From contig JAKIUJ010000002.1 of assembly GCA_021647625.1 (NCBI GenBank), positions 1-59,905 of the forward strand: a DNA stretch of 59,905 bases, written 5' to 3'. A model generated the notes under the pieces. The model made no database searches and was not told where the DNA came from. It saw only the letters and a list, made by a program, of their open reading frames with translations. Position numbers and translations under genes: made by a program. How positions within the stretch are numbered: the stretch's first letter is position 1; each line of letters opens with the position of its first letter. Shown piece by piece: positions 23,536-57,396 of the stretch. The stretch comes from Desulfobacula sp. (GTDB lineage: Bacteria > Desulfobacterota > Desulfobacteria > Desulfobacterales > Desulfobacteraceae).

Positions 23536-26500
23536 ATGGTTAATCGCAAATCAAATAAATACAATACCATCTTTGCCTTCTCTATTCTGATTATCCTCCT
23601 GGTCGGCAGCATGTCTCTTCTTTTTGCAAAAGATACCGACATTTATGATGTCAGCATCAAGCAGAACGCTTATATCCTCCTGGATAACTCAGGTTCCATG
23701 GATTTTGGCGTTTATGAGCAGAGCATTGACTACGGTGCCATGTTTGACTATCTGTTTACTTTAAATGATGCTGGCAGCCAGGCTGATTATATTTATGACA
23801 CCATTAACAACAGCAATTATTTTTATCAAAATCACAAAGAAAGAAAAAAAATATTTTTATGGAAAGGCAGAATCGGAGTGACCACAGCTACCGTAGATGG
23901 GAAAACTGTGGCCTTCACAGGAGATGCAGCCGATCCCAATTATCTCTGGTTCAGTGCAGATCTTGTAGATACAAATACTCTGATTGACTCAGACGGTAAC
24001 CTGATCTATGACGGGTCAGGCACACAAAGGCTGACAACTGATGCTGACGGCTATGTTCTTCTGGATGGTAACCGCCTGCCTTTAAGCCGGGACATCCTGC
24101 TTCATAATGTGCAGACCATGTATAATGGCAGCCAGGTAGACGCAGGATTTGGCGGGCTTTTAAATGCTCCGGGATATTATTTTTCAGGCTATGAAGGAGT
24201 TTCTGCAGGCAGCCTGAATGTGGCAGAAAGCGGTGATCAGGATATCTATTTTTTTGTTACCGGCAACTGGGTGAACATGCAGGCCATGTACAACCTGCAT
24301 TATAAAGACAATCCTGTCCCCCAGGGTGCATCCATCGGAGATCCTGCATGGAAATATGAAGTCTATCCAATTACTCAGGCTGCCTGGCTGGAACTTGCCC
24401 ATACTGTAAAATATCCTGCCAGTGGTCAATATGCCAATAATCTTCCGGAAAACCAGACAATGAAAACCATTACCCATCCAGGCGCAAAAAAAATGCAGGT
24501 TCATTTCAGTGCCTTTGATGTGGAACGCGACAATAGAACATCGCAATGGAGATATGATTATGTAGCCATATATGATGGTTCCGGTACTCTGGTGGCAAAA
24601 TATGATGGAGACAACCCCCCGACAGGAGGGGATGGGTGGTCTGCCACGGTTAATGATGAAACCGTAATGATTGCATTAAAATCAGATGGCAGTGTCGTTG
24701 GAAACGGATATACCATCGACAAAATCAGAGTAACCTATGAATCAGGCAGCGGCGGTTATCTTATGCAGAACCGCCTGGATGTTGCAAAGGATGCTATTTT
24801 ATATGTTGTTGATACTTTTCAGGGCAAAATGAACTGGGGATATGCAAGTTTTAAGTATCTTGGCACCTCGGGTGATGGTGCCACGATCAAGTCTGCTTTA
24901 AATCCCAATTTAACTGACGATCAAAACAGGGCTGCCATCAGAACCCATGTCCAGAACGAAACACCACAATACGGCACACCATTGGGTGAAGCACTGCAGG
25001 ATGTGTTTGAAAAAGGTTATTGGACCAAACGCAATGCTCTTGACAATTTAAACTGCCGCAAAAATTATATTATTTCCGTGACCGATGGATTTCCGTCTTC
25101 TGATACTGACTGGAACAGGATAAGTGACCCTGGAAGTGATCCAAAGCTTCCTTTTCTTGACTGGGATGGTGACGGATGGACATCAGATCCTTACCAATAT
25201 TCCTCTCCACCTGCAAATTATTATGATGATGTAGGAAACTGGATCTATACCCATTCCTGGCAGAGCGATACCAAAGCTTCTGTATCAGATCCGGCCAACT
25301 CATATGAAAACGTCATAACTCACCATATTGCATTTGGGGCTGACCATCCTCTTTTAAAAGATGCAGCAGGAGAATCCGGCGGCGAATACATTGTTACATT
25401 TAATAAAGAACAGCTTGTTGCGGCATTTTATTCCCTTGCTCTGCAAATGACCGAAGCTGTTTCTTTTACCTCACCTGTTGTTTCCATTGATGCGGCCAAT
25501 AAAATCCAGAACGGCGACGATCTGTACATGGGGCTTTTTCTGCCCCAGGATAATCAGACCTGGATGGGAAACATTAAAAAATTTGTTCTGGGTGACGGCA
25601 GCACAAACCGGCCCAATGTATGGATGCTCTACGATGGTAACAATAATGAAGCTATCAACAGCGATGGAGAGTTTTTAGACAATACCGCAGCTTTCTGGGG
25701 TGATGATACCGATACAAATGATTCAGACAGCTATGGCAGTTCGGATGTACGTGAAGATGGCGTAGGTGAAGTCTTAAAGGAACGTATGGACTTTGATTTT
25801 TCAAATACTAATTACTGGGACCGCCCGATTTACACCTACAGCACAACATTGGATTCAATCATAAAGGTTAAATATGATACTATCACCGCCACCGATCTGA
25901 ATGTTGCAGATGATGCTGCACGGGATAAGGTCATCAATTACCTTTACGGATATACCTATGATGCCGATGCCGTAACCCATGCCCCTTCTGCTGTCAGAGA
26001 CTGGGTATTAGGCTCCATAGTACATTCACGACCTGTGGTTGTTGATTATTATGACCCCATTGATACCCTTTTAAAACGATATATTGTGGTTGGGGCCAAT
26101 GACGGCATGCTCCATGTGTTTGATGACACAGACCCCACTGATGTCAATTATGGAAAAGAAATTTTTGCTTTTGTCCCCGAAGACATGCTGACTAAACTTT
26201 CAAATATTTCACAAAATCCAATGGTTGATGCGGTTGACGGATCAATAACCCTTTATCGATCTAACAAAGCCCCTAAATATCTTATTTTCGGTGAAAGGCG
26301 CGGGGGCAGCAAATACTGGGCTTTGAATATTACAGATAAAAATCCTTTGAACTGGACAGTTCAATGGCAGTACTCCAACTCTGAAATCCTTCAAACCTGG
26401 TCTGATCCCATTACTGCAAAAATACCTGTTTCAGTGAATGCTTCAACCGGTGAACGTGGATTTAAGGATGTTCTTGTATTCACAGGAGGGTATGATACAG

Positions 26501-28056
26501 AAGAAGACTCTTTTCCCGAACCCTTTACCGATCTTGACAATAATGGGAAACCCTATAAAGCCAATGGCACCATAGACACAGCAGAATGGAGTCTGAGCGA
26601 TGCTGCCCAGGATGTAAATAATAATAATACTTATGATAAATATAATCTGGATAAAAACGAATATGGACGGGGAATTTTTATTGTGGATATTGATAATCCT
26701 GCAACTGTCACCAATGACAGCTCAGGAAACCAGATCCTGCCATTTTCAGCAACCTATGGTGCAGCAACAACATCAGATACCAATGGTGCAGTTCAAACAC
26801 TGTCTTCCATGAAATTTTGTTTTCCTGCCTCGCCGGCTGTTGTTACAACTTCCATGGCCTATCTTTACAAACTCAGTGGTGTAATTACCGAAGGCCGAAA
26901 ATCAAATGTTCTTTCAACCATTTATGCAACTGATATTTATTCAAATGTATATCGGATCGGCTATACTTTTACCGTTGACCCTGATAATCTGGACACAGAT
27001 ACGTACACAGTTAAAACAAACAAGTGGACAATAACTAAAATTTTTTCCGGAAATCCGGGCAGCCTGAGTGACAGCAGCGAATTTGACAAAGGCGCAGACA
27101 CAAGTGACCAGGGAAGAAAAACATTTTATCCGCCGGCAGTATCCTGGGGTGGCTCCTTCACTTATTTTGATTCCGGCAATTACAGGTTTGATGATACTAT
27201 TTTCCCTGGAACAGATCAAATTGCCACTATATTTTTTGGTACAGGAGACAGGGAGCATCCCACATACACCATGATTAAAAATCGTATGTATGCTGTATAT
27301 GATGATTCCCAGGTGACAGGAATTCTGGACCCGGATGGCCTTAAAACTAATATTACCGTCACAAGTGTTCCCTATACCGAGGATAATTTGTTAAATTTAA
27401 GCTGTGATGAACTGGGCAAGGGAACAACCCTTACCGGAGTTACAAAAGAGGACCTGGAAGAAATTTTAACTGATAATCCAACATATAACAGCTTTACCAG
27501 TCTTGAAAACGGCGCCGCATATGAAGATGACGGCAAAGGCTGGTATATTGTTTTAGAAGATCAGGGAGATGCAACCGAATGCGCCCACTGCTCTTACAGC
27601 GGTACTGTTTCAAACACAAGCACATCAGACAGGGACAACCATGATGGTGAAAAAATCCTAAGCCGCATCAGCCTTTATTCAGGGGTGCTGTATTTTACAT
27701 CTTACCAGCCATCTGTATCTGATCCCTGCAATCCCCAGGGTAACGGTTTATCATACTCTCTTAATTATCATGACGGATCTGCGGCTTATAACTTAAACAC
27801 TGTTAATGACAGTACCGAACCTGTATACGATGTTACTGACAGATACCATAAAAAAGTAAAAATATTTGGTATTCCCTCCAGTTATTCCATTGTTATTAGA
27901 AAAGGTACGGCTGGAGCCATGTCAATGATGGGCGGGGATATTATCGGCCCTGACCCTGATAACCCTGATGATCCTGATAACCCTTTTAAAATAAACAGCC
28001 CGGAATACGGTCTGGATCTCTACTATTGGAAAGAAGGCAGTACACTGGATCATTAG
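23536..28056 (+). CDS. pilY1: PilY1-type pilus tip adhesin
   Basis: This exported protein has 1506 residues and an N-terminal signal peptide. A von Willebrand A-like part starts at the MIDAS motif DNSGSM (about residue 50) and resumes near 440-660 (TPLGEALQDVFEKGYW; EF-hand-like DWDGDGWTSD near 542). A stretch at about 310-400 with YDYVAIYDGSG looks like a CUB-type insertion. The C-terminal PilY1 beta-propeller begins near 830, with VVGANDGMLHVFDD around 850 and ERRGGSKYWALNI, and a candidate calcium loop DVNNNNTYD near 1025. The tail has DPDNPDDPDNP repeats. PilY1 sits at the pilus tip and promotes extension, adhesion and surface sensing. Its gene ends the minor-pilin set. Confidence 0.92.
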   Translation: MVNRKSNKYNTIFAFSILIILLVGSMSLLFAKDTDIYDVSIKQNAYILLDNSGSMDFGVYEQSIDYGAMFDYLFTLNDAGSQADYIYDTINNSNYFYQNHKERKKIFLWKGRIGVTTATVDGKTVAFTGDAADPNYLWFSADLVDTNTLIDSDGNLIYDGSGTQRLTTDADGYVLLDGNRLPLSRDILLHNVQTMYNGSQVDAGFGGLLNAPGYYFSGYEGVSAGSLNVAESGDQDIYFFVTGNWVNMQAMYNLHYKDNPVPQGASIGDPAWKYEVYPITQAAWLELAHTVKYPASGQYANNLPENQTMKTITHPGAKKMQVHFSAFDVERDNRTSQWRYDYVAIYDGSGTLVAKYDGDNPPTGGDGWSATVNDETVMIALKSDGSVVGNGYTIDKIRVTYESGSGGYLMQNRLDVAKDAILYVVDTFQGKMNWGYASFKYLGTSGDGATIKSALNPNLTDDQNRAAIRTHVQNETPQYGTPLGEALQDVFEKGYWTKRNALDNLNCRKNYIISVTDGFPSSDTDWNRISDPGSDPKLPFLDWDGDGWTSDPYQYSSPPANYYDDVGNWIYTHSWQSDTKASVSDPANSYENVITHHIAFGADHPLLKDAAGESGGEYIVTFNKEQLVAAFYSLALQMTEAVSFTSPVVSIDAANKIQNGDDLYMGLFLPQDNQTWMGNIKKFVLGDGSTNRPNVWMLYDGNNNEAINSDGEFLDNTAAFWGDDTDTNDSDSYGSSDVREDGVGEVLKERMDFDFSNTNYWDRPIYTYSTTLDSIIKVKYDTITATDLNVADDAARDKVINYLYGYTYDADAVTHAPSAVRDWVLGSIVHSRPVVVDYYDPIDTLLKRYIVVGANDGMLHVFDDTDPTDVNYGKEIFAFVPEDMLTKLSNISQNPMVDAVDGSITLYRSNKAPKYLIFGERRGGSKYWALNITDKNPLNWTVQWQYSNSEILQTWSDPITAKIPVSVNASTGERGFKDVLVFTGGYDTEEDSFPEPFTDLDNNGKPYKANGTIDTAEWSLSDAAQDVNNNNTYDKYNLDKNEYGRGIFIVDIDNPATVTNDSSGNQILPFSATYGAATTSDTNGAVQTLSSMKFCFPASPAVVTTSMAYLYKLSGVITEGRKSNVLSTIYATDIYSNVYRIGYTFTVDPDNLDTDTYTVKTNKWTITKIFSGNPGSLSDSSEFDKGADTSDQGRKTFYPPAVSWGGSFTYFDSGNYRFDDTIFPGTDQIATIFFGTGDREHPTYTMIKNRMYAVYDDSQVTGILDPDGLKTNITVTSVPYTEDNLLNLSCDELGKGTTLTGVTKEDLEEILTDNPTYNSFTSLENGAAYEDDGKGWYIVLEDQGDATECAHCSYSGTVSNTSTSDRDNHDGEKILSRISLYSGVLYFTSYQPSVSDPCNPQGNGLSYSLNYHDGSAAYNLNTVNDSTEPVYDVTDRYHKKVKIFGIPSSYSIVIRKGTAGAMSMMGGDIIGPDPDNPDDPDNPFKINSPEYGLDLYYWKEGSTLDH

Positions 28057-45780: not shown

Positions 45781-47526
45781 ATGAAAAATAAAAAAAATAT
45801 CATTTCCCAGTATCCTAGAAAAATAGAAAAAGAGCTTGGCGAATTTTTAAATAAAAAATTCGGTGGGAGTGTCAAAATCATCAACCCTTCTGTGGTTCCA
45901 CAACCTGAATCAATAACAGGAAAATCAACATCCAAAAAGAAAACAGAACTGTTGAATTTTAATATTAAACCCAAAGAACTGATTGATTATCTCGATCATT
46001 ATGTCATCAGGCAGGCAAAGGCAAAAAGTGTTCTCGCAACAAAAATATGTACCCACTTTAACCGTATCCGCCATGCCAAAAGCAGTGAAGAGGGCATTTT
46101 AAAAATTACCGGTAATATCAAATCCAATATTTTAATGCTTGGACCCACGGGTATTGGAAAGACATATCTTATAAAACTAATTGCCAAAAGAATTGGCGTA
46201 CCATTTGTAAAAGCGGATGCAACAAAATTTTCTGAAACCGGATATGTCGGTGGTGATGTTGAGGATCTTATCCGGGACCTGGTTCGAGAAGCTGATGAAG
46301 ACATTGAACTTGCCGAATGCGGAATTGTTTATATTGATGAAATCGATAAAATTGCATCAAGTCCGAATGTGATTGGTGCCCAGGTATCGAGGACAGGTGT
46401 TCAGCGAGCACTCCTAAAACCCATGGAGGAGACCGATGTTGACCTGAAAGTTCCCCATGATCCCGTATCCATGATGCAGGAACTGGAATCTTTTCAAAGG
46501 ACCGGCAAACGAAGTAAAAAAAGAGTAAACACCGCCAATATCCTTTTTATCGTCAGCGGGGCCTTTTCAGAATTGTCCGAAGTGATCAAAAAAAGGTTAT
46601 CAAAACAGACTATTGGATTTGGATCAACTTTGATCAAGTCCCAAAATACCCAGGATCTATTAAAGCAAACCAAGGCCCAAGACCTTGTAAATTTTGGTTT
46701 TGAATCTGAATTTATCGGTCGATTACCTGTGCGGTGTATTTTAGAAACCTTGACCGAAAAAGATCTATTCGATATTCTTAAGATGCCGAATAATCCTGTC
46801 ATCTTAAGCAAACGGCTTGATTTTACTGCGTATGATATAAATATTATTTTTACCGATGATGCCTTAAACCTTCTTGCCAAACGCGCCTACAAAGAGAACA
46901 CGGGTGCCAGGGGGCTTGTCAGTGCTGTTGAAGAAGCACTGCTTGTCTTTGAAGAAAATCTGCCTTCTCAAAAAATCACTCAATTTGTCATTACAAAAGA
47001 GGTGATAAAACACCCACAAACACATCTTAAAAAGCTTATTTCAAATAAGGACCCAAAAAAATGGAATAATCTTTATGAAACAGCTTTCAATGATCATAAG
47101 GAGTATATTTCCACTTATTTAAAGAATAATTGGAAAACTTTTTCCATTCGACATGGGTTGACTCTTTCAGAGGTTAGATGTGATATGGTTGCTCATTACT
47201 TTTGTAACCACGTAATGGAAATTAAAGATGCGATTAAAAGAATCAAAAAATTTCATGATTCTATTAAAAAAATTGAACTTGAAGTCTCAAAAAGCTATGA
47301 TCTTAATATTATATTTGAAGAAGATGCCGTTGATTTTTTAATTGAACAGTTTATCCAGCACCAGGCAAGCTGTGAGGAAATACTGACCAAATTTTATGAT
47401 AATTATTATGACGGATTTAATCTTGTCCGTGAAAAAACAGGAAAAAACAGATTTTTTCTATCAAAAAATGCTTTAGTTAACCATAAAACCTACCTTAACG
47501 AACTAATTAGGAAAGAAATAACATGA
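45781..47526 (+). CDS. ClpX-like AAA+ unfoldase without zinc-binding domain, with C-terminal extension
   Basis: This protein has 581 residues; ClpX is usually about 420. It lacks the N-terminal Cys4 zinc domain but matches ClpX from PKELIDYLDHYVIRQAKAKSVL onward. Walker A GPTGIGKT lies near 121, the pore loop GYVGGD near 153, Walker B GIVYIDEIDK near 181, and IGFGS near 278 corresponds to the IGF loop by which ClpX binds ClpP. Sensor-2 ARG is in ENTGARGLVSAVE. After about residue 420 an extra Lys-rich helical region follows. ATGA overlap with ahbC couples it to the heme genes. It is probably a ClpX paralog acting on specific substrates; docking to ClpP is inferred. Confidence 0.82.
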   Translation: MKNKKNIISQYPRKIEKELGEFLNKKFGGSVKIINPSVVPQPESITGKSTSKKKTELLNFNIKPKELIDYLDHYVIRQAKAKSVLATKICTHFNRIRHAKSSEEGILKITGNIKSNILMLGPTGIGKTYLIKLIAKRIGVPFVKADATKFSETGYVGGDVEDLIRDLVREADEDIELAECGIVYIDEIDKIASSPNVIGAQVSRTGVQRALLKPMEETDVDLKVPHDPVSMMQELESFQRTGKRSKKRVNTANILFIVSGAFSELSEVIKKRLSKQTIGFGSTLIKSQNTQDLLKQTKAQDLVNFGFESEFIGRLPVRCILETLTEKDLFDILKMPNNPVILSKRLDFTAYDINIIFTDDALNLLAKRAYKENTGARGLVSAVEEALLVFEENLPSQKITQFVITKEVIKHPQTHLKKLISNKDPKKWNNLYETAFNDHKEYISTYLKNNWKTFSIRHGLTLSEVRCDMVAHYFCNHVMEIKDAIKRIKKFHDSIKKIELEVSKSYDLNIIFEEDAVDFLIEQFIQHQASCEEILTKFYDNYYDGFNLVREKTGKNRFFLSKNALVNHKTYLNELIRKEIT

Positions 47527-48713
47527 TTGGAATTTCAAAGCTTTATTGTGCCACTGTCGAGCCATCGGATGCTTTAAGATACTCAAGACAATCAAATGAA
47601 CTGCCCTCTCATCTTCTACAGTTTTCAAAAGATAAAAAGCCCGTAGTCGTTTGGAATATGACGCGTCGTTGCAATCTAAAATGTGTTCACTGTTACGCCA
47701 GGTCCGAGGATATTTCCTACGACAATGAATTAAATCATGAACAAAGTCTTGCCATGATTGATGATCTTGCGGACTTTGGTGTGCCTGTTTTGTTATTTTC
47801 AGGTGGAGAACCCCTTGTACACCCCCGTCTTATCGAATATGCACAATATGCGGTCAAAAAAGGCATGAGAGCTGTAATTTCAACCAATGGAACCTTAATC
47901 ACAAAGGAAAAAGCCAAGCTTTTAAAAGAGATCGGCTTGTCCTACGTCGGTATCAGCCTTGATGGCTTGGAGGCAACCCATGATAAATTCAGAGGGGTCA
48001 AGGGCTCGTATAAAAAAGCCATGGCCGCCATTGAAAATTGTCAGCAAGCCGGTATTAAAGTGGGATTGCGATTCACTATCAACAAAAGAAATGTAAATGA
48101 TATACCTGGTATTTTTGATCTTCTTGAACAAAAAAATATCCCCAGGGCCTGTTTTTACCACCTGGTCTATTCAGGCCGCGGGTCGGAAATTGCTAAAGAA
48201 GACCTGTCGCATGAAGATACACGAAAAGTGCTTGATTTAATCATGGACCGAACAAAAGACTTGCACGACCGGAATATACCCAAAGAGGTTTTAACCGTGG
48301 ATAACCATGCAGACGGGCCCTATGTCTACCAGCGCCTTTTGGATGAAGATCCCGAAAGAGCTGCTGAGGTTTTAGAGTTGCTTGAGATGAATGAAGGCAA
48401 TAACTCAGGCCGTGGTATTGGCTGCATCTCATGGGACGGTGAAGTTCATCCTGATCAGTTCTGGCGTGAAAAAACCCTTGGTAATATTAAAGACATGCCC
48501 TTTTCCAAGATCTGGACAAATGAAGACAATGACTTTCTGATGAAAATGAAAGAGAAAAAAAAGCATGTTAAAGGCCGGTGCGCCCAGTGCAAATGGCTTG
48601 ATATTTGCGCCGGAAATTTCAGGGCAAGAGCGGAATCTGTTGCCAATGATCCCTGGGACAGTGATCCTGCATGCTATCTTACAGATGAAGAGATCAAAAA
48701 GGAGAAATCATAA
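47523..48713 (+). CDS. ahbC: 12,18-didecarboxysiroheme deacetylase (radical SAM)
   Basis: This protein has 396 residues. The start MIGISKLYC and SHLLQFSKDKKPVVVWNMTRRC are the AhbC hallmark. The radical-SAM cluster motif is CNLKCVHC, with GGEP further on. C-terminal Cys residues (GCISWDG; CAQCKWLDIC) are for an auxiliary 4Fe-4S cluster. It removes the two acetate side chains of didecarboxysiroheme to give Fe-coproporphyrin III. It follows the ClpX-like gene by ATGA and precedes hemB by TAATG. Confidence 0.93.
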   Translation: MIGISKLYCATVEPSDALRYSRQSNELPSHLLQFSKDKKPVVVWNMTRRCNLKCVHCYARSEDISYDNELNHEQSLAMIDDLADFGVPVLLFSGGEPLVHPRLIEYAQYAVKKGMRAVISTNGTLITKEKAKLLKEIGLSYVGISLDGLEATHDKFRGVKGSYKKAMAAIENCQQAGIKVGLRFTINKRNVNDIPGIFDLLEQKNIPRACFYHLVYSGRGSEIAKEDLSHEDTRKVLDLIMDRTKDLHDRNIPKEVLTVDNHADGPYVYQRLLDEDPERAAEVLELLEMNEGNNSGRGIGCISWDGEVHPDQFWREKTLGNIKDMPFSKIWTNEDNDFLMKMKEKKKHVKGRCAQCKWLDICAGNFRARAESVANDPWDSDPACYLTDEEIKKEKS

Positions 48714-49687
48714 TGCTGTTCCCAGATTTTCGGGGAAGACGATTGAGAGCCAGTTCTAATTTCCGCAGAATGATACGTGAAACCACCCTCTCACGCAATG
48801 ATTTGATTTTACCCCTGTTTGCCATTGAAGGAAAATCAGTTAAAAAACCCATAGAATCCATGCCTGGACATTTCCAACTTTCGGTTGATCATATTGTCAA
48901 AACGGCACAAAAAGCCAATGACGAAGGCATTCCGGCGATTATATTATTTGGTGTGCCGGATAAAAAAGATCCTCTTGCCACCCGAGCCTATGCACCGGAT
49001 TCTATTGTTCAAAAAGCAATTTATGCTGTTAAAGAGAAAGTACCGGATATTAGTGTGATTACCGATGTTTGTCTTTGCGGATACATGGATCACGGTCATT
49101 GCGGTGTTGTGGATAAAGGTATCATTGATAACGATGCCTCTCTTGACCTTCTGGCAAAAACAGCGCTGTCACATGCAAAGGCCGGTGCAGACATGGTCGC
49201 CCCATCCGATATGATGGATGGCAGGGTTGCTGAAATTCGAGGACTTCTTGATGATGAGGGGTATTCCCATATTCCGATCATGTCTTATGCCGTTAAATAC
49301 AGTTCCGCCTTTTACGGACCATTCCGGCAAGCTGCGGAATCAGCTCCGCAATTTGGTGACAGAAAAACCTACCAGATGGATCCTGCCAATTCCAACGAAG
49401 CCATCAGGGAAGCCACCATGGATATCGAGGAAGGTGCCGATATCATCATGGTTAAGCCCGCCCTGTCCTATCTCGATATTATTTATCGGCTAAAAGAAGA
49501 GATTGATCTTCCCATTGCAGCATATAATGTCAGTGGCGAATACTCCATTATGAAGGCCGGTGAAATCATGGGTTGGGTTAATGCCCGGGAAATGATCATG
49601 GAAACACTATTATCCATAAAAAGAGCAGGTGCTGATTTGATACTGACATATTCCTCTATCGATGTTGCAAGGGAGTTAAATAAATAA
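48713..49687 (+). CDS. hemB: Delta-aminolevulinic acid dehydratase (porphobilinogen synthase)
   Basis: This TIM barrel has 324 residues. DVCLCGYMDHGHCG contains the three Cys residues of the catalytic zinc site, so it is the zinc-dependent form. KYSSAFYGPFRQAAESAP carries one Schiff-base Lys and MVKPALSYLDII the other. It joins two aminolevulinates into porphobilinogen, early in tetrapyrrole synthesis. TAATG junctions on both sides tie it to ahbC and ahbD. Confidence 0.95.
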   Translation: MLFPDFRGRRLRASSNFRRMIRETTLSRNDLILPLFAIEGKSVKKPIESMPGHFQLSVDHIVKTAQKANDEGIPAIILFGVPDKKDPLATRAYAPDSIVQKAIYAVKEKVPDISVITDVCLCGYMDHGHCGVVDKGIIDNDASLDLLAKTALSHAKAGADMVAPSDMMDGRVAEIRGLLDDEGYSHIPIMSYAVKYSSAFYGPFRQAAESAPQFGDRKTYQMDPANSNEAIREATMDIEEGADIIMVKPALSYLDIIYRLKEEIDLPIAAYNVSGEYSIMKAGEIMGWVNAREMIMETLLSIKRAGADLILTYSSIDVARELNK

Positions 49688-50781
49688 TGAATCATCCCCA
49701 CGGACAAGGAACAAAACCCGATACAAAGCCAGGTGCCGATATCATACGTCTTGTGGCTTGGGAAACAACCCGGCGGTGCAATCTTAAATGCAAGCATTGT
49801 CGTGCCGTTGCCGAAGACCATCCATATGAAAATGAACTGGATACAAAAGCGTCTTTCAAGCTGCTTGAGCAAATTTCAGAGGTGGGCAACCCCATTATCA
49901 TTTTAACGGGTGGAGAACCCCTTCTCCGTGATGATATTTTTGATATCGCAGCCTATGGCACCAAGTTGGGCCTTCGTATGGTGATGGCCCCTAACGGGAC
50001 CCTGATTACTCCTGAAACTGCCAAAAAAATGAAAGACTCCGGTATTAAACGAATCAGTATCAGCCTGGATGGTTCTACCCCAAACACCCATGATGCATTC
50101 AGGGGGGTTAAAGGGGCCTATAAAAGCGCTATGCAAGGCATCGAAGTCGCAAAAACCGCTGGTATTGAATTTCAAATAAATACAACGATTACAAAAACAA
50201 ATCTTGATCAAATCCCAAAAATCCTTGCATTGGCTGAAGAATTAGGAGCTGTTGCCCATCATATTTTTCTTCTTGTACCGACAGGTCGTGGCAAATACAT
50301 TGCTGACAGTGAGATTAATGCCAATGAGTACGAGGAAACCTTGAACTGGTTTTATGATCAAAGAGAAAAAACCAAGCTACAGCTCAAAGCCACCTGTGCA
50401 CCGCATTATTATCGAATCCTGCGACAGCGTGCTAAAGAAGATGGCAAAAAAGTTACATTTGAAACCCATGGATTAGATGCCGTCACCCGGGGCTGCTTAG
50501 CCGGAACAGGATTTTGCTTTATTTCCCATGTTGGCCGCGTTCAAACCTGCGGATTTCTTGATGTTACCTGTGGAGATGTTACCAGACAAACCTTTAAGGA
50601 CATATGGGATAACTCCCAGGTATTTAATCAATTAAGAGATTTTACAAACCTGGAAAGCAAATGCGGTATCTGTGAATTCAAGCGGGTCTGCGGCGGGTGC
50701 AGGGCCCGTGCCTACGAGGCAACCGGCAGCTATTTAGAAGAAGAACCTTTGTGTTCCTATCAACCTGCAAAAACCAAATAA
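49687..50781 (+). CDS. ahbD: Heme b synthase (radical SAM)
   Basis: This protein has 364 residues. The radical-SAM motif CNLKCKHC follows LVAWETTRR; GGEPLL and SISLDG match the fold, and the C-terminal CGICEFKRVCGGCRARAYEATG is a SPASM-like auxiliary cluster site of AhbD. It decarboxylates two propionates of Fe-coproporphyrin III to vinyl groups, giving heme b, the last step of the siroheme route used by sulfate reducers and archaea. The AhbA/AhbB decarboxylase genes are not in this window. A terminator follows directly. Confidence 0.93.
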   Translation: MNHPHGQGTKPDTKPGADIIRLVAWETTRRCNLKCKHCRAVAEDHPYENELDTKASFKLLEQISEVGNPIIILTGGEPLLRDDIFDIAAYGTKLGLRMVMAPNGTLITPETAKKMKDSGIKRISISLDGSTPNTHDAFRGVKGAYKSAMQGIEVAKTAGIEFQINTTITKTNLDQIPKILALAEELGAVAHHIFLLVPTGRGKYIADSEINANEYEETLNWFYDQREKTKLQLKATCAPHYYRILRQRAKEDGKKVTFETHGLDAVTRGCLAGTGFCFISHVGRVQTCGFLDVTCGDVTRQTFKDIWDNSQVFNQLRDFTNLESKCGICEFKRVCGGCRARAYEATGSYLEEEPLCSYQPAKTK

Positions 50782-50859: not shown

Positions 50860-51048
50860 TTAAGTTTTAATCAGATTTTTCGTAAGCCCCGCTGCAATCA
50901 ACAACCCCGATCCTATACCCAAAAGTGCAAAGGGTGCAGGTAACGGATTCACAGCAAAGTACTGCCCGATTTTATCTGCGTGAGCAAACACGGGATAAAA
51001 AAATATAGCAGTTATGAATATGGCATACAGTATAATATTGCGTTTCAT
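50860..51048 (-). CDS. Very short exported protein with PEP-CTERM/VPLPA-like C-terminus
   Basis: This protein has 62 residues. The N-terminal signal peptide is MKRNIILYAIFITAIFFYPVFAHA, with a cut predicted after AHA. Only about a dozen residues (DKIGQYFAV) separate it from NPLPAPFALLGIGSGLLIAAGLTKN, which has the form of a PEP-CTERM/VPLPA sorting signal: a Pro-rich motif, a hydrophobic helix with GSGLL, and a basic end. GGAGG lies 6 nt before ATG 51048; the frame open to 51195 has no support. A strong sigma-54 candidate lies 87 nt upstream. PEP-CTERM proteins are sorted by exosortase, not seen here. Confidence 0.75.
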   Translation of the reverse strand: MKRNIILYAIFITAIFFYPVFAHADKIGQYFAVNPLPAPFALLGIGSGLLIAAGLTKNLIKT

Positions 51049-51134
51049 TTCAATCCTCCACTCTCTTGCGATAAAAAGAAATATTCTTTCAAATATTTTG
51101 TCTTCTTGTTTAATTTTCATTTTATTATGTACAG

Positions 51135-51150
51135 AGCAAAGAGTGTACCA
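51135..51150 (-). promoter_or_regulatory. Sigma-54 (-24/-12) promoter candidate of the PEP-CTERM-like gene
   Basis: Read on the minus strand, TGGTACACTCTTTGCT differs from the consensus TGGCAC-N5-TTGCW only at one place, and GG and GC are 10 bp apart. It lies 87 nt upstream of the 62-residue gene. PEP-CTERM genes are known to be sigma-54 dependent in some proteobacteria, which supports the call. Confidence 0.62.
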
Positions 51151-51347
51151 AGTCGTTATTTTTTCACAATTTAAAACAAAATATTCTTTAAACACAATGC
51201 TTTACCATTAAAGACACAGCAAGTTTATAAAATTTTTGTATCAACGATTATGAAAACAATTAAACAAATTTATGTATTTTTTTTCTTAGTTTTTATAACA
51301 TTTTTTTAAAGTCTTCTTTTGTGATATACTACAAAGCATTCTAATTT

Positions 51348-51557: not shown

Positions 51558-52886
51558 ATGAAAAAAACTCTATATTTAATAATTCTTATCTGGTTTTATT
51601 GTTACAGCACTTTTACAGTCTGCTTTGCGGATTCTCAAGAATATACCTATCGCACAGGGATAGACTTGTTTAACCAAAAGAATTTTGAACCAGCCTATAA
51701 AATATTTTTACTGATTTTCGAAAATGATCCTGAAAATCTGGAATTAAATTTTTATCTCGGACGTTCGGCTTTTGAGACCGGTAACTATGAAATGGCTGTT
51801 ATGGCCTTTGAAAGAATTTTGATTGTATCCCCTTTTGAACAAAGAGTTAAACTGGAAATCGCACGATCCTTCCATAGACTTGGTGCGAATAATATTGCTA
51901 AAAAATATTGTAAAGAAGTTTTAGACGCTAACCCACCGGATATTGTAAAAAATAACATAAAAAATTTTCTTTCCTTGATTGACAAATCTGAACAAACTCA
52001 TTTTATAGATGGATATCTTACCGTTGGTGTCGATTGGAATAATAATGTCTGGGCATCCCCCTCCAATAAGACAATCAAAACCGTCATCGGTGATATCAAC
52101 CTGACAGGACCATCTTCGGCAAAAACCCAGGACTGGATCTACAATACTGTTTTTGGACTCAACCATACTTTTCGTTATCCTTATTCCAAAAATTTCTGGA
52201 AAACAAAGACCATTTTTTACCAGGGTTTGTATGGAAAAACCAGTGATCTTGACACCATTTACATTTCAGCTCAGACAGGACCTGAATTCAATTTTGGTAA
52301 AAATCGATTAAAGACAAAATTTTTAATGGCCCAGCTTCAACTTGACAGGGACAAATATGAATCAACTATTGGTGTTCTGGTTGCACTGGATCACATTATA
52401 AATTCCGGCTTAATATTGACCACAACCTTAGATTACAAAATTCAGGATTTTCCTGATAATTCTTTAAAAGATTCCACCGATAAAAGTATTACTTTTGAGG
52501 CACATTTCCCGTACCGAAAGAACTGGTTTGGCATTGGATCCAGGGTCCAGGAAGAATCCGCTTTTGATGATGAATACAGTTATAATAAATATTCAGCTTT
52601 TATTACGGCAAGCCGGGAATTTTCACCAAATACGATTGGATTTTTCAATTATGAATATCAATATGCCGGATATAAAAAGGCTGCTTCTCTTTTTTCAAAA
52701 AACAGGATGGATCAATTGCATTTTGCCGGTTGCGGTCTAAGTAAAAAATTATGGCAATCATCCCAAGACAGTATGCAAAATATTTTTTTTAACCTGAATT
52801 ATCAGCACATATGGGCATTTTCCAATATTTCCTTATATGAATATACCAAGGATCTTATTCAATTGTCCCTAACATACAATTTTTAA
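51558..52886 (+). CDS. TPR and beta-barrel outer-membrane protein (Slam / type XI secretion-like)
   Basis: This protein has 442 residues. A signal peptide (cut after CFA) is followed by TPR-like helices from about 27 to 150 (YRTGIDLFNQKNFEPAYKIFL; YLGRSAFETGNYEMAVMAFERIL). Residues 155-442 alternate in polar/aromatic strands (GVDWNNNV, WIYNTVFGLNHTFRYPYS) and end in Tyr-Asn-Phe, the mark of an outer-membrane barrel. This layout is that of DUF560/Slam proteins, which move TbpB-like proteins to the cell surface. The gene 12 bp downstream encodes a protein with a TbpB-like C-terminal barrel, the expected cargo class. The Slam call is inferred from layout and context. Confidence 0.7.
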   Translation: MKKTLYLIILIWFYCYSTFTVCFADSQEYTYRTGIDLFNQKNFEPAYKIFLLIFENDPENLELNFYLGRSAFETGNYEMAVMAFERILIVSPFEQRVKLEIARSFHRLGANNIAKKYCKEVLDANPPDIVKNNIKNFLSLIDKSEQTHFIDGYLTVGVDWNNNVWASPSNKTIKTVIGDINLTGPSSAKTQDWIYNTVFGLNHTFRYPYSKNFWKTKTIFYQGLYGKTSDLDTIYISAQTGPEFNFGKNRLKTKFLMAQLQLDRDKYESTIGVLVALDHIINSGLILTTTLDYKIQDFPDNSLKDSTDKSITFEAHFPYRKNWFGIGSRVQEESAFDDEYSYNKYSAFITASREFSPNTIGFFNYEYQYAGYKKAASLFSKNRMDQLHFAGCGLSKKLWQSSQDSMQNIFFNLNYQHIWAFSNISLYEYTKDLIQLSLTYNF

Positions 52887-52898
52887 AAGGGAAAAAAG

Positions 52899-55100
52899 AT
52901 GCAGCCAAGTCAAATATCAAGCCTATTATGTGGTTTTATAGTCATCTTCATGATTTTATCAATCCCGCCTTTGAAGTCAAACGAATCATTTGCAAGCGAA
53001 TCGGTTTTTGATCCTGTTGGTAAAGTTGTTGCGATTCGAAAAAAAGCCTGGGCCATTGATTCAAAATCTAAAAAAAGGGTGCTGTTCATTAAAGCCGCCA
53101 TCTATCTGCACGATACCATTAAGACGACACAGGGCCGAATCCAGATTATTTTTAAAGATAAAACCATTGTCACCTTGGGCAAAAAAACACAAATGAAAAT
53201 CACGCGCTACATCTGGCAGCCTGATAATCCTGAGTCTGAAATGGAAACACAGATAAATGAAGGCAGTTTTAGAATTATGGGGGGATCCATCACCAAAACT
53301 GCTCCCCAAAACTTTAAAACCAACACACCCTCAGGCACCATTGGCATCAGAGGGTCCATGTATGCCGGCCTTGTAAAAGAAGATTTCTTAGAAATTTTCT
53401 TTCAAGGAGGCAAAGGGATTGTAGTCAAAAATACTTTTGGGACGGTTGAGCTAAAGCGCCCTGGGTATATGACAACAATCAAAGGAATTCTGTCCCCACC
53501 TGAAAAACCAAAGAAAGCTGATCCCAAAAGATTAATAGAGTTTGAAAACACCCTTGCCCAGGTCAACGAAGCACCATTGGATCAAGAGCCATTGGATCAA
53601 GATTCCGAACAAACTGAGGCACATTTTTTTAACATGGAAAAAACAATAGTAGCACTTGATGATAGCACGACAGCTCCACTTGACGGGCTTGACCCCATTG
53701 AGCCGCTACCCGTGACTTCATCCATTATTGGCAATTCAGTGATTGATTCAACTCAAAACAATTTAGATAAGAGCCTGGACCCATCAACTGATGAAAGTAA
53801 AATCCTTTTCTCATTGTTAAACCTTGGTTTTACCGGTCAACAATCCACAAGCGTACCCGCCACAGGGATATCAGAGTATAAGGGGATACTTGAAAACCAG
53901 GTTCTGAACGAATCTCCCGGTGGTATCAAATTCATTGTAAACTGGGCAAACAAAAAAATTATTGCAATAGAGGATCTGCCGTTCGGGGCTAAAAATCTTG
54001 GTACAGGATTTGGGTTTGGCTCAGTTACAGCCAATGGTGGTATTGACAATATCGTTGTTTTAGGATCGGGTGGTTTTTTGGATAATAATAATATCTATGC
54101 ATTAACAGGATCAGAAACCTTTGGCCATTTTTATGGAACCAATACAGATGCCATAGGCATTGCCATGGAAGGGTATGATATCAATTTAAATAATGTCTCA
54201 GATCGGATATTCTGGAAGGACATTGCAGCGGCAACATTGGCATCCTCAAACAACAATACATATACAGGCCAACATGTTTGGAAAGGTTTTTTTGTTGGCG
54301 TGGCCGAAGACATGGCTGATATAGATACAGGCCGACGTATTTTTACCAATACAACTGCGAATGATTTTACCCTTACCATTGAAAAAAGCGATGGCACATT
54401 AAGCGGCTTCATGTCCGGGAGTGACTTTAATAATGGGGCAAATACTCTCAATTCTTTATCAATTGGCGGGACAATAGGTGAACCTGAAAAATCCGTGTTC
54501 ATCAATGATGTTGCAATGGCGGCAAAGCTCACCGGCAGCGGCAGCGTCCTGACAATAAATTCAAATAGCGGGGATATCAAAACAAATGGTAATTTCATGG
54601 TGACTTCGGGCGAATCCCAACTATCCGGGCACACAACATGGGGATACTGGGAAACGGCCTTTAGTGAACCTGGTACTGGAAAAAATTATCATCTTCATGT
54701 TCCCGGCGCTTTATGGATCGCTGGAGAGCCAACCTCCGCAAGCACAATTTCTCCTCTTATAGGTGGAACCTTTGAAGGCACATATGCAGGAAAAGCAAAA
54801 GGAATCATGATCGACGGCACAGGTATAAAAACACTGACCAACGGTACCACTAATCTGTTTATTGATTTTGATGCAACAGACAAAATAACCGGAAATATCT
54901 CATTTTCAGAAAAAACACTGACAATAGGGGCCTACTCAGGTTCAATCTCCACATCAGGATTTTCCGCAGCCATTGATGGTGCAACAAGCAGTAATGTAGA
55001 TGGTGCTTTTTATGGTTCCGCACTTGAGGGAATCGGTGGCAATTTTTCTGCTGATTTTTCCGGCACACAATATCACGGCATTTTTGCAGGAGACAAATAA
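52899..55100 (+). CDS. FecR-domain protein with C-terminal TbpB-like beta-barrel
   Basis: This protein has 733 residues with a signal peptide (cut after SFA near 34; no convincing lipobox). Residues 38-200 form a FecR domain: VGKVVAIRKKAWAI, GRIQIIFKDKTIVTLG, and TPSGTIGIRGSMYAG. A linker with acidic and Pro-rich parts follows (about 205-310). From about 320 the chain is Gly/Ser/Thr/Asn-rich and beta-like, and ends with DGAFYGSALEGIGGNFSADFSG and YHGIFAGDK, the closing pattern of transferrin-binding-protein-B-type barrels. It lies between a Slam-like gene and a cyclase gene. It is a likely surface-directed or periplasmic sensor protein. Confidence 0.78.
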   Translation: MQPSQISSLLCGFIVIFMILSIPPLKSNESFASESVFDPVGKVVAIRKKAWAIDSKSKKRVLFIKAAIYLHDTIKTTQGRIQIIFKDKTIVTLGKKTQMKITRYIWQPDNPESEMETQINEGSFRIMGGSITKTAPQNFKTNTPSGTIGIRGSMYAGLVKEDFLEIFFQGGKGIVVKNTFGTVELKRPGYMTTIKGILSPPEKPKKADPKRLIEFENTLAQVNEAPLDQEPLDQDSEQTEAHFFNMEKTIVALDDSTTAPLDGLDPIEPLPVTSSIIGNSVIDSTQNNLDKSLDPSTDESKILFSLLNLGFTGQQSTSVPATGISEYKGILENQVLNESPGGIKFIVNWANKKIIAIEDLPFGAKNLGTGFGFGSVTANGGIDNIVVLGSGGFLDNNNIYALTGSETFGHFYGTNTDAIGIAMEGYDINLNNVSDRIFWKDIAAATLASSNNNTYTGQHVWKGFFVGVAEDMADIDTGRRIFTNTTANDFTLTIEKSDGTLSGFMSGSDFNNGANTLNSLSIGGTIGEPEKSVFINDVAMAAKLTGSGSVLTINSNSGDIKTNGNFMVTSGESQLSGHTTWGYWETAFSEPGTGKNYHLHVPGALWIAGEPTSASTISPLIGGTFEGTYAGKAKGIMIDGTGIKTLTNGTTNLFIDFDATDKITGNISFSEKTLTIGAYSGSISTSGFSAAIDGATSSNVDGAFYGSALEGIGGNFSADFSGTQYHGIFAGDK

Positions 55101-55131
55101 AAATCATTTTTTTTAATCCTATAAACAATCT

Positions 55132-57396
55132 ATGATTCAATCTATTAAATCGGCTTTAAATTTTCCTTGTTTGATCCTTGGCGCCTTGCTTGTTATTTCC
55201 TCGTGTCTTGTTTACTACAGTTTCGGTAACCAAAAACCCGCTCTTTTGACTTTAATTGACTATCGTGTCATGGATATGATGTTCAATATCAGGGGTCCCC
55301 AACCTGATTCAAAAAATGTAGTGATTATCGATATTGATGAAAAAAGCCTTAAAATTCTCGGACAATGGCCCTGGCCCAGAAATATTCTTGCAGATCTGAC
55401 ACAAAAACTCCATAAAGCCAATGTTCGATCCGTTGGATTCGACATTCTTTTTGCTGAAAAAGATAGAAGCTCTCCGGCATTTTATTTCCAAAATCTGGAT
55501 CCATCCATCATAAGCCTAATTCCACAAGACATACTTGTCTCCCTTTTGAACAATGATGCTTTGGATTATGACTCGCTTTTTGCAAACGCACTCGGTTCCG
55601 GCCCAAGCGTTCTTGGATACGCATTTCAGACTATAAACGATGGCTTGAAGTCTGATGAAGATCTGCCCTTCCCATCAAGTATTATACGTATTCACCCAAC
55701 CTCCTTTAATTTTAAAGACCTATCACTTAGATCTGCCTATCGAGCCATCGTCAATCATCCATCCGTTGCCATGGCCGAAACAGAAGGTTTTTTCAATGTA
55801 TTTCCGGATGAATCGGGTACCACACGCCAGGTACCGCTTATTATGATGATGGATGATATTCCGTATCCATCACTTGCTTTAGAGACTTTTAGACTTGGGA
55901 TAAAAACACCATCAATCACCATCCATGTGTCAAAAACAATTAAAACACGCAAGCCACCTGTACTTGGACTTCAAATCAACGACCGGTTTATACCAACAGA
56001 CAGCTTTGGACAATTGTTCATCAACTACCGTGGATCTTCCGGCACATTTAAATCTATATCCGCCATTGATATTTTAAATGGAAAACGAGTGTCTGAAGTG
56101 ACTGAAAAATTTATCATTATCGGCTCGTCATCCAAAGGCTTGTATGATTTAAGAACAACCCCTTTTTCAAGAGCCGTCCCCGGGGTTGAAATCAATGCCA
56201 ATATTATTGATAACCTGATCCAATCAGATCCCTTTGTCTATGATCATTTAACTGAAATTGGATTGACCTATACGCTAATTATCGCTGGTGGACTTTTACT
56301 TGCACTTATTCTCTCATTTTTAGGGCCTCTGGCCGGCAGTCTGGGTGCCGTAATCCTGATTTTATCTGCCAGTGTAGTGAACTATTATTATTTTTTCCTG
56401 AATCATCGATATGTCGGTATGACGTATCCGCTTGTCACATGCGGATTTATTTTATTGATAACCAGTATTTATAATGCCTTTAAAGAACAAAAAGCCAAGC
56501 GATATATTAGAAAAGCATTTTCCCACTATGTTTCCAAAGATGTGGTTTCCGAATTGATCCGAAACCCAAAGGCCTTGTCACTAAAGGGCGAGGAAAAGAT
56601 TCTCACCGTGCTATTTTGTGACATAAGGGGATTTACAGGTATTTCCGAAAAAATGAACTCCCGGGATCTGGGAAATTTCATGAACAATTATTTAACCTGT
56701 TTGAGTCATATTATTATGAAGAACAAGGGAACCGTGGATAAGTTTATTGGTGACGCCATCATGGCATTCTGGGGTGCCCCCAAAGATGATCCAATGCATG
56801 CTCTAAAATCGGTTCGCGCAGCAATGGAAATTAAGGCTGAGATTTCCAATCTTGCCGGTGATTTTGCAAACCAAAACCTGCCGGACATTCGTGTTGGAAT
56901 TGGTATCAATACCGGACTGATGAGTGTTGGTAATTTTGGAAGTAAGGAGCGATTTGACTATACGGTTATGGGAGACAATGTCAATATCGCCTCAAGGCTT
57001 GAAGGCGCCAATAAAAATTACGGAACAACCATCCTGATCTCAGATGCTACAAAAAATATCATCAAGGACACCTTTTTTTGCCGATATATTGATAAAGTCC
57101 AGGTAAAGGGACGTTCACAGGCTCTTGATCTTTTTGAACCACTGACAAATGGTATCCCTGATGCGGAGTTGATAAAAAAAGTCGAACAATTTGAAAAGGG
57201 AGTTACAGCCTACCAGAATCAAAATTTTAAAACTGCAAAAACCATAATGGAAACACTTTATCAAAACGAGCCCGATAGGCTGTATCAATCATATCTTGAT
57301 CGAATCAATGCTTTTATAGCTTCCCCGCCACCATCGGAATGGATCGGCACGGAACGACGTACGACACTACCGGTCAATAAGCTGACAACCAAATAA
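55132..57396 (+). CDS. CHASE2-domain adenylate cyclase, class III
   Basis: This protein has 754 residues. The first segment (ALNFPCLILGALLVISS) anchors a periplasmic CHASE2 sensor (about 35-375; DIDEKSLKILGQWPWPRN and PGVEINANIIDNLI are typical). Three membrane segments follow (about 380-450), then the cyclase at 495-680: LFCDIRGFTGIS with the metal Asp, KFIGDAIMAFWGAP with a Lys, and DYTVMGDNVNIASRLE. Lys with Thr at the base-reading positions favours ATP over GTP. A TPR-like tail ends it. It should make cAMP in response to an outside signal. It follows the FecR gene by 31 bp. Confidence 0.9.
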   Translation: MIQSIKSALNFPCLILGALLVISSCLVYYSFGNQKPALLTLIDYRVMDMMFNIRGPQPDSKNVVIIDIDEKSLKILGQWPWPRNILADLTQKLHKANVRSVGFDILFAEKDRSSPAFYFQNLDPSIISLIPQDILVSLLNNDALDYDSLFANALGSGPSVLGYAFQTINDGLKSDEDLPFPSSIIRIHPTSFNFKDLSLRSAYRAIVNHPSVAMAETEGFFNVFPDESGTTRQVPLIMMMDDIPYPSLALETFRLGIKTPSITIHVSKTIKTRKPPVLGLQINDRFIPTDSFGQLFINYRGSSGTFKSISAIDILNGKRVSEVTEKFIIIGSSSKGLYDLRTTPFSRAVPGVEINANIIDNLIQSDPFVYDHLTEIGLTYTLIIAGGLLLALILSFLGPLAGSLGAVILILSASVVNYYYFFLNHRYVGMTYPLVTCGFILLITSIYNAFKEQKAKRYIRKAFSHYVSKDVVSELIRNPKALSLKGEEKILTVLFCDIRGFTGISEKMNSRDLGNFMNNYLTCLSHIIMKNKGTVDKFIGDAIMAFWGAPKDDPMHALKSVRAAMEIKAEISNLAGDFANQNLPDIRVGIGINTGLMSVGNFGSKERFDYTVMGDNVNIASRLEGANKNYGTTILISDATKNIIKDTFFCRYIDKVQVKGRSQALDLFEPLTNGIPDAELIKKVEQFEKGVTAYQNQNFKTAKTIMETLYQNEPDRLYQSYLDRINAFIASPPPSEWIGTERRTTLPVNKLTTK

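Follow-up and report, generated by a model that had tools for sequence, protein, structure and literature searches.

A candidate envelope signalling unit built from a Slam-like barrel, a FecR-TbpB-like protein and a CHASE2 cyclase in Desulfobacula

What common task could be served by an outer-membrane protein of the Slam type, a protein that joins a FecR domain to a TbpB-like barrel, and a cyclase with a CHASE2 sensor domain, when their genes lie side by side? We addressed this question in a 59,905-nucleotide stretch of Desulfobacula sp. (contig JAKIUJ010000002.1), probably a sulfate reducer; the stretch is referred to below as the window. The set consists of three plus-strand open reading frames (ORFs), present as described in the initial annotation (51558–52886, 52899–55100 and 55132–57396), with intergenic gaps of 12 and 31 bases. 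The plus strand carried three terminator-like sites, all of them intragenic (nine on both strands versus 6.4 in shuffled sequences); therefore, the genes of the Slam-like protein, the FecR-TbpB-like protein and the cyclase are likely to form one operon, as predicted from the DNA. Our preferred reading, held with somewhat better than even confidence, is that the three genes constitute one envelope signalling unit: a Slam-type port would export and display the gene 2 product, its FecR domain would be retained at the port, and contact of FecR with CHASE2 would be relayed by cyclic AMP (cAMP). The genes and their parts, all on the plus strand, are as follows (pLDDT, predicted local distance difference test).

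51558–52886, plus strand: gene 1, Slam/type XI secretion system (T11SS)-like outer-membrane protein, 442 aa (SlipAM over cut-off; model pLDDT 89.1)
51648–51995, plus strand: TPR-like domain of the Slam-like protein, residues 31–146, presumed periplasmic (helices in the model)
51996–52883, plus strand: outer-membrane barrel of the Slam-like protein, residues 147–442 (SlipAM match 207–442; 14 long strands)
52899–55100, plus strand: gene 2, predicted exported FecR-TbpB-like protein, 733 aa (Pfam, NCBIfam, model and fold search)
53010–53513, plus strand: FecR domain, residues 38–205 (Pfam match 72–155; structural match to BDI_1681 and PupR)
53514–53786, plus strand: linker, residues 206–296, pLDDT below 50 at 221–294 (AlphaFold model)
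53856–54311, plus strand: first beta lobe, residues 320–471, variable, putatively ligand-binding (strands in the model)
54336–54623, plus strand: strand-rich inter-lobe segment, residues 480–575, handle-like by analogy (strands in the model)
54630–55097, plus strand: C-terminal TbpB-type barrel, residues 578–733, presumed Slam export signal (Pfam, NCBIfam, model and fold)
55132–57396, plus strand: gene 3, CHASE2 cyclase, probably an adenylate cyclase, 754 aa (Pfam)
55225–56274, plus strand: CHASE2 domain, residues 32–381, presumed periplasmic (Pfam)
56494–57141, plus strand: class III cyclase domain (Pfam; invariant residues)

Domain assignments of the three proteins

The families named for all three genes in the initial annotation were borne out by Pfam and fold searches. 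The gene 1 protein scored 29.2 bits against SlipAM (PF04575; cut-off 22), and scores of its orthologues reached 62.1 bits; the possibility raised at the outset, that the outer-membrane protein might fall outside this family, did not materialize. The Slam-specific TPR model PF24575 gave 12.4 bits (cut-off 35.2), and the generic TPR matches in Pfam were all below their own cut-offs. A structure model (pLDDT 89.1) contained TPR-like helices at residues 31–145 followed by 14 long strands. The Slam barrel fold has 14 strands, the same number. The fold search was not Slam-specific: it returned many outer-membrane barrels with BcsC first, and no Slam appeared among the best 50 PDB rows. We dropped this search as proof of Slam identity, and the assignment therefore relies on the sequence and the neighbouring gene. 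By its profile match, the gene 1 product is a member of the SlipAM (Slam, T11SS) family, with cargo export as a predicted function.

The gene 2 protein passed the cut-off for FecR (PF04773; 28.3 bits, cut-off 24) and remained below it for the TbpB barrel family TbpB_B_D (PF01298; 19.1 bits, cut-off 26). Among three scanned orthologues, two exceeded the latter threshold (L072, 39.1; L074, 35.9) and one did not (L064, 20.5). The NCBIfam model NF041636, ‘Slam-dependent surface lipoprotein’, matched at E 2.3e-8 with 34.5 bits, below its cut-off of 80. In an AlphaFold model (pLDDT 82.0), the FecR domain was ordered and the linker disordered, and beta lobes were evident. In a fold search with this model, the first 29 PDB matches were all TbpB (best E 3.4e-9), the FecR-type anti-sigma regulators BDI_1681 and PupR occupied ranks 30–32 and 34, and factor H binding protein and hemophilin were among the matches that came next. 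TM-scores to TbpB were low (0.17–0.20 normalized by query, 0.22–0.27 by target), and the likeness is therefore one of lobes. T11SS cargo of the TbpB and hemophilin type ends in an eight-stranded TbpB-type barrel. For gene 2, the TbpB-like nature of this barrel, on which the initial annotation depended, was upheld by the fold and by the scores of two orthologues out of three, whereas the Pfam score of the window’s own protein did not reach the threshold.

The family has a hydrophobic, signal-like N-terminus, and a simple rule (not a signal-peptide predictor) found no lipobox in 27 of 28 members; the single motif, in L116, was located before the hydrophobic stretch. Such a non-lipidated N-terminus fits the Sec signal of a soluble T11SS cargo, as which we predict the gene 2 protein. 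Regulators of the FecIR type combine a cytoplasmic anti-sigma segment with an adjacent FecI-type sigma factor. We rejected classical FecI-FecR regulation for the window, where gene 2 begins with the signal-like hydrophobic stretch and the flanking genes are ahbC, hemB, ahbD and a pyrophosphate (PPi)-dependent phosphofructokinase.

CHASE2 sensor domains are widespread in bacteria, and few of their inputs are known. The gene 3 protein matched CHASE2 (191.5 bits) and Guanylate_cyc (82.2 bits) far above the Pfam cut-offs. Residues D497, K537, D541, T611, N618 and R622 were invariant across 12 aligned sequences, and we take them to be the metal, adenine(-selective) and transition-state residues of the cyclase. 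The product is probably an adenylate cyclase, with use of GTP a possibility. The genome contained 15 matches to cyclic-nucleotide-binding domains; cAMP receptors may therefore be present, none of them tied to the operon.

Linkage and conservation among relatives

We scanned one genome per GTDB species for the cargo barrel and obtained 32 loci, mostly from metagenome-assembled genomes named Desulfo- or Deltaproteobacteria, with the isolate Desulfospira joergensenii DSM 10085 in addition. Fetched loci carry L-numbers and genomes G-numbers; the two sets overlap (L096 is G016, L090 is G007, and there are others) and were not summed. Having been found through the cargo barrel, the 32 loci measure the companions of the cargo, not how often a Slam or a cyclase has a cargo, and some of them are near-copies (L094 and L095). 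As genes in L100, L101, L103 and L113 had escaped ORF calling, a six-frame profile search was used instead; weak TPR-only matches of the Slam-like protein in relatives were not counted.

In 25 of the 32 loci, some of them cut at an end, the genes for the Slam, the FecR-barrel protein and the CHASE2 cyclase followed one another in this order on the same strand. An opposite-strand ORF precedes the cyclase in L087 and L088, and the cyclase is split in two pieces in L101. Six of the remaining seven loci stop at a contig end (L090, L094, L097, L104, L108 and L112), and one, L102, is without a cyclase in the 8 kb examined. The co-occurrence of the three families, proposed as a check in the initial annotation, was thus confirmed with order and strand conserved. 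Two loci deserve separate mention: the FecR-barrel protein of L102 (2493–8879) has grown to 2128 aa, and the cyclase of L094, which is labelled Zixiibacteriota, is a near-copy of that of L095 (Desulfuromonadaceae) in our tree, the label perhaps reflecting misbinning or a recent transfer.

A second sample comprised 97 genomes, including the window’s own. Fifteen had a cargo match that reached the barrel, and the cyclase adjoined it in 12; the contig stopped first in G007 and G011, and in G070 a cyclase (49% identical) was found on another contig. The cargo is patchy within the genus (5 of 26 genomes: G000, G007, G011, G016 and G021). Of 395 genomes sampled across the phylum, 75 matched the cargo profile at 1e-15, mostly through FecR alone.

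Sequence identity was distributed unevenly along the proteins. Mean pairwise identity in the cargo was 54% for FecR, 46% for the C-terminal barrel, 39% for the middle segment, 32% for the first lobe and 20% for the linker; in the Slam-like protein it was 49% for the TPR and 34% for the barrel; and in the cyclase protein it was 51% for CHASE2 and 59% for the cyclase domain (the alignments contained 28, 22 and 12 rows, respectively, and values can be compared only roughly from one protein to another). We counted the higher identity of FecR, TPR and CHASE2, relative to the first lobe, the Slam barrel and the linker, in favour of the signalling unit. The pattern is consistent with a signalling core and an export signal that are kept constant and an outer face that varies.

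FecR-CHASE2 pairs and the exchange of export ports

Pairing of FecR with CHASE2 extends beyond the Slam-type sets. In 29 genomes, 23 of 54 FecR places were within 3 kb of a CHASE2 place, versus 0.31 expected under random placement, and 22 of 74 CHASE2 places were near a FecR (the FecR places include three that do not reach the family cut-off, and a few of the places may be fragments of a single gene). Because the relatives are not independent, this enrichment overstates the evidence; it nevertheless supports the two domains as a linked pair, as the initial annotation had supposed. The same annotation knew of no described system that combined these parts, and here it was mistaken. In Sinorhizobium meliloti, NsrA is described as an outer-membrane barrel receptor and CyaK as a CHASE2 adenylate cyclase that together turn a signal into cAMP (PMC7529298, PMC13001267), a system supported by published genetics (PMC7529298). 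In Campylobacterota, the cluster around CHASE2 cyclases comprises an outer-membrane protein with a FecR domain, together with a TPR protein and a phosphodiesterase, and a single pathway has been proposed (PMC9239204).

In the pSymB record (L083), the gene of the FecR protein lies directly upstream of that of the CHASE2 cyclase. NsrA contains FecR at residues 66–160 and TPRs at about 420–590, and its Pfam barrel match is below cut-off. As far as NsrA-CyaK has been described, both systems comprise a FecR protein beside a CHASE2 cyclase, a TPR and an outer-membrane barrel; the difference is that NsrA is one FecR-TPR-barrel chain, whereas the window’s set splits these parts over two proteins. The Slam-barrel profile had no match to NsrA at E < 1, and no TbpB lobe was recognised there, the cargo-barrel profile reaching E 0.02–0.05 only; descent of the NsrA barrel from a common ancestor with Slam was therefore not supported. 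The Campylobacterota cluster, compared by its description alone, differs in having a phosphodiesterase, and the available text names no Slam or TbpB (PMC9239204). The Burkholderia BiofilmReg operon likewise has a FecR protein beside a CHASE2 sensor, but these are a LysM-FecR protein and a CHASE2 histidine kinase, and no barrel or cyclase is mentioned in the available text (PMC5192318). Long FecR proteins (ORFs of 948–1130 aa) adjoined CHASE2 cyclases in five genomes (L148–L152), with FecR above cut-off in all; L148 has FecR and TPRs by Pfam, and the TPRs of L149–L152 are weak profile matches. On an Ensifer sp. PDNC004 plasmid (L084), a cyclase aligning over 97% of the window’s CHASE2 cyclase lies beside a FecR and a small TPR protein, and the neighbours as annotated are an NHLP-type exporter, a secretion protein and a cyclic-nucleotide-binding protein, again an export system together with these parts.

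Type XI secretion (Slam/DUF560, with TbpB and hemophilin as cargo) resembles the window’s set in the SlipAM barrel with a TPR-like domain and in the neighbour with a C-terminal TbpB-type barrel; it differs in that the window’s cargo has an N-terminal FecR and the operon has a cyclase. FecR, CHASE2 and cyclase are absent from the main text of the T11SS papers examined, and our term searches of the open-licence literature found no paper that links CHASE2 to T11SS.

We compared cyclases in a tree of 48 hand-chosen rows, 20 of them labelled Slam type (in L069, L076, L094, L097 and L112 the label is based on the FecR-barrel gene, the Slam gene being beyond the contig end). Cyclases of the Slam-FecR sets formed one clade of 24 rows (support 100/100), which also held three exceptions and one distal case. 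The first instructive locus, G003:C402 of a congener, has a cyclase 62% identical to the window’s in a four-row genus subclade (100/100). Its FecR stands alone (7.6e-75 to the FecR profile), a TolC-like protein (PF02321, 1.3e-24) ends in a TPR homologous to the Slam TPR (5e-34), and three HlyD-domain proteins (one with a peptidase M50 match below cut-off) and a DUF4347 protein are present. The Slam barrel and both cargo lobes are missing together, and we call the locus type I-like because of the TolC-like and HlyD parts alone. The G003 orthologue scored 30.8 bits against the retention-module model NF033682 (cut-off 50). The second, G069:C5, encodes ShlB (6.7e-29), a GLUG exoprotein of 2666 aa with a two-partner secretion (TPS) domain (9.7e-35), a FecR and a cyclase, which makes it a two-partner secretion locus; its FecR ORF runs into an unread base, and the placement of its cyclase inside the clade is ambiguous. 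Surface signalling by FecR and a CHASE2 cyclase is already known, and what is new is the Slam/TbpB form and the exchange of ports within one cyclase clade, neither of which we found in print in the open-licence literature.

A related cyclase clade (8 rows, 100/100) was recovered from 8 of 16 fetched loci, at which the cyclase gene is divergent from a type I cluster; TolC-like proteins were confirmed by Pfam in four of the eight (L177, L180, L184 and L185). In three of these genomes, large repeat proteins cluster with a CHASE2 cyclase at L078:5287–9519, L079:6826–11109 and L080:6926–9421. N-terminal stretches of these RTX-repeat proteins matched the retention-module model below cut-off, and Pfam confirmed FecR in the N-termini of L078 and L079, the two tested. 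The double matches hint that FecR and retention-module domains may be related. In LapA-type adhesins, the retention module is the part that stays inside. The RTX proteins of L078 and L079, near the related cyclase, are like such adhesins in matching both models; they differ in that the retention-module scores are below cut-off, and the window’s gene 2 protein has no match. Two further loci vary the pairing: L160 has a Slam-like and FecR-barrel pair with no CHASE2 in view, and L167 a Slam with a TbpB-like cargo that lacks FecR.

Weighing the readings of the set

If the three genes form an envelope signalling unit, the C-terminal TbpB-type barrel would direct the gene 2 protein to the Slam port, and the variable first lobe would face outside and bind a ligand. 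The N-terminal FecR domain would fold and stay in the periplasm against the TPR domain of the port, as an adhesin’s retention module stays inside, and would make up the inner part of a surface receptor. The ligand or the export state of the displayed half would then act through FecR and TPR on CHASE2 and alter cAMP. The core of FecR, TPR and CHASE2 cyclase is separable from the export machinery, and stands beside other ports in relatives. The absence of a lipobox in 27 of 28 members leaves surface attachment to be explained, and a FecR plug would supply it.

Several observations weigh against this proposal. Known Slam cargo has been proposed to pass in the unfolded state and along its full length (PMC9090332), which would carry FecR beyond the reach of CHASE2. 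The LapA retention-module model gave no match to the gene 2 protein at E up to 0.1. L102 has Slam-like and FecR-cargo genes with no cyclase within the 8 kb examined, G070 has both without an adjoining cyclase, and G048 (L172, G048:C222) retains the cyclase, with neither a Slam nor a FecR gene in the stretch that separates it from ahbD; a FecR-cargo match was not found in the whole G048 genome, an apparent loss of the Slam and FecR genes as a pair. From G048, L102 and G070 it follows that the parts are not strictly obligate together. Among the exchanged ports, no ATP-binding cassette (ABC) ATPase was in view at G003:C402, and no TPR was seen in the 15 kb examined in G069. Finally, L154, L155, L156 and L158 each carry a Slam-like gene paired with a FecR gene; these pairs show no C-terminal barrel match, and no CHASE2 is in view beside them (the L156 pair ends at a contig end; L158 has a weak match to the first-lobe profile, E 0.0016).

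The main rival, which we consider unlikely, is that the cyclase senses an export backlog: the cargo would be fully exported, and the pool of FecR still unexported in the periplasm would meet CHASE2, so that cAMP reports a blocked or saturated port. This agrees with the complete translocation of Slam cargo proposed in the literature (PMC9090332), with the exchange of export systems in G003 and G069, and with the non-lipidated N-terminus, which suits a soluble secreted cargo. A backlog sensor would leave unexplained the conserved TPR beside FecR in G003, and also NsrA as described, where FecR is part of the outer-membrane barrel protein.

Somewhat less probable again is a receptor of the NsrA kind, in which the Slam-like barrel itself would sense and the FecR-TbpB protein would be a periplasmic adaptor to CHASE2 without export. 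NsrA joins FecR, TPR and barrel in a single chain, pairs of a Slam-like and a FecR gene that lack a C-terminal barrel match do exist, and the barrel fold search does not single out Slam. Opposed to it are the lack of a Slam-barrel profile match in NsrA, the C-terminal TbpB-like barrel, which is a published cargo signature (PMC12282271), and the joint absence of the Slam barrel and both lobes in G003.

We give little credence to an ordinary T11SS scavenger of heme or metal, whose operon would carry its own cAMP regulator and whose FecR would be a structural extension: TbpB and hemophilin folds were found with gene 2, ahb heme genes adjoin the set and, by eye, cobalamin or hemA genes occur in some relatives, but no tetrapyrrole genes were recognised beside L109–L117 (by eye, from N-termini, with no profile search), and FecR shows the highest conservation within the cargo and pairs with CHASE2 even without Slam.

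In the window, the 5' neighbours of the set are ahbC, hemB and ahbD, of the alternative heme synthesis (47523–50781, plus strand, directly upstream), and the 3' neighbour is the convergent PPi-dependent phosphofructokinase. By eye, ahbC-hemB-ahbD recurs in several relatives, cobalamin genes lie at L066 and L068, and hemA at L071. We rejected a tetrapyrrole (heme or cobalamin) ligand as a general rule from the L109–L117 neighbourhoods, inspected as described above; a tetrapyrrole may still be a ligand in the gene 2 family. A ClpX-like ATPase ORF of 581 aa (45781–47526, plus strand; 321 bits, below the ClpX cut-off of 359), with an extra C-terminal part, sits 5' of the ahb genes. A short ORF of 111 aa (50860–51195, minus strand) was matched neither by Pfam at 0.001 nor by NCBIfam at 1e-6; its end resembles a sorting tail of the PEP-CTERM/VPLPA type. 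No NCBIfam match at 1e-6 was found for a 1506-aa ORF (23536–28056, plus strand).

Returning to the envelope signalling unit, we tentatively suggest, at less than even confidence, that it belongs to a general class, in which a core of FecR and CHASE2 cyclase, often with a TPR, reads the state of a protein that is retained in, or in transit across, a secretion port of the outer membrane. During evolution, the same core would have moved between ports of the type XI (Slam), the type I-like (TolC) and the type Vb (two-partner) kind, and in NsrA it would have been fused to its own barrel. If FecR proteins retained at outer-membrane export ports are partners of CHASE2, many orphan CHASE2 cyclases and kinases would gain a testable input, type XI secretion would gain a signalling role beyond nutrient binding, and the exchanged secretion systems would serve as a natural experiment on which components transmit the signal.

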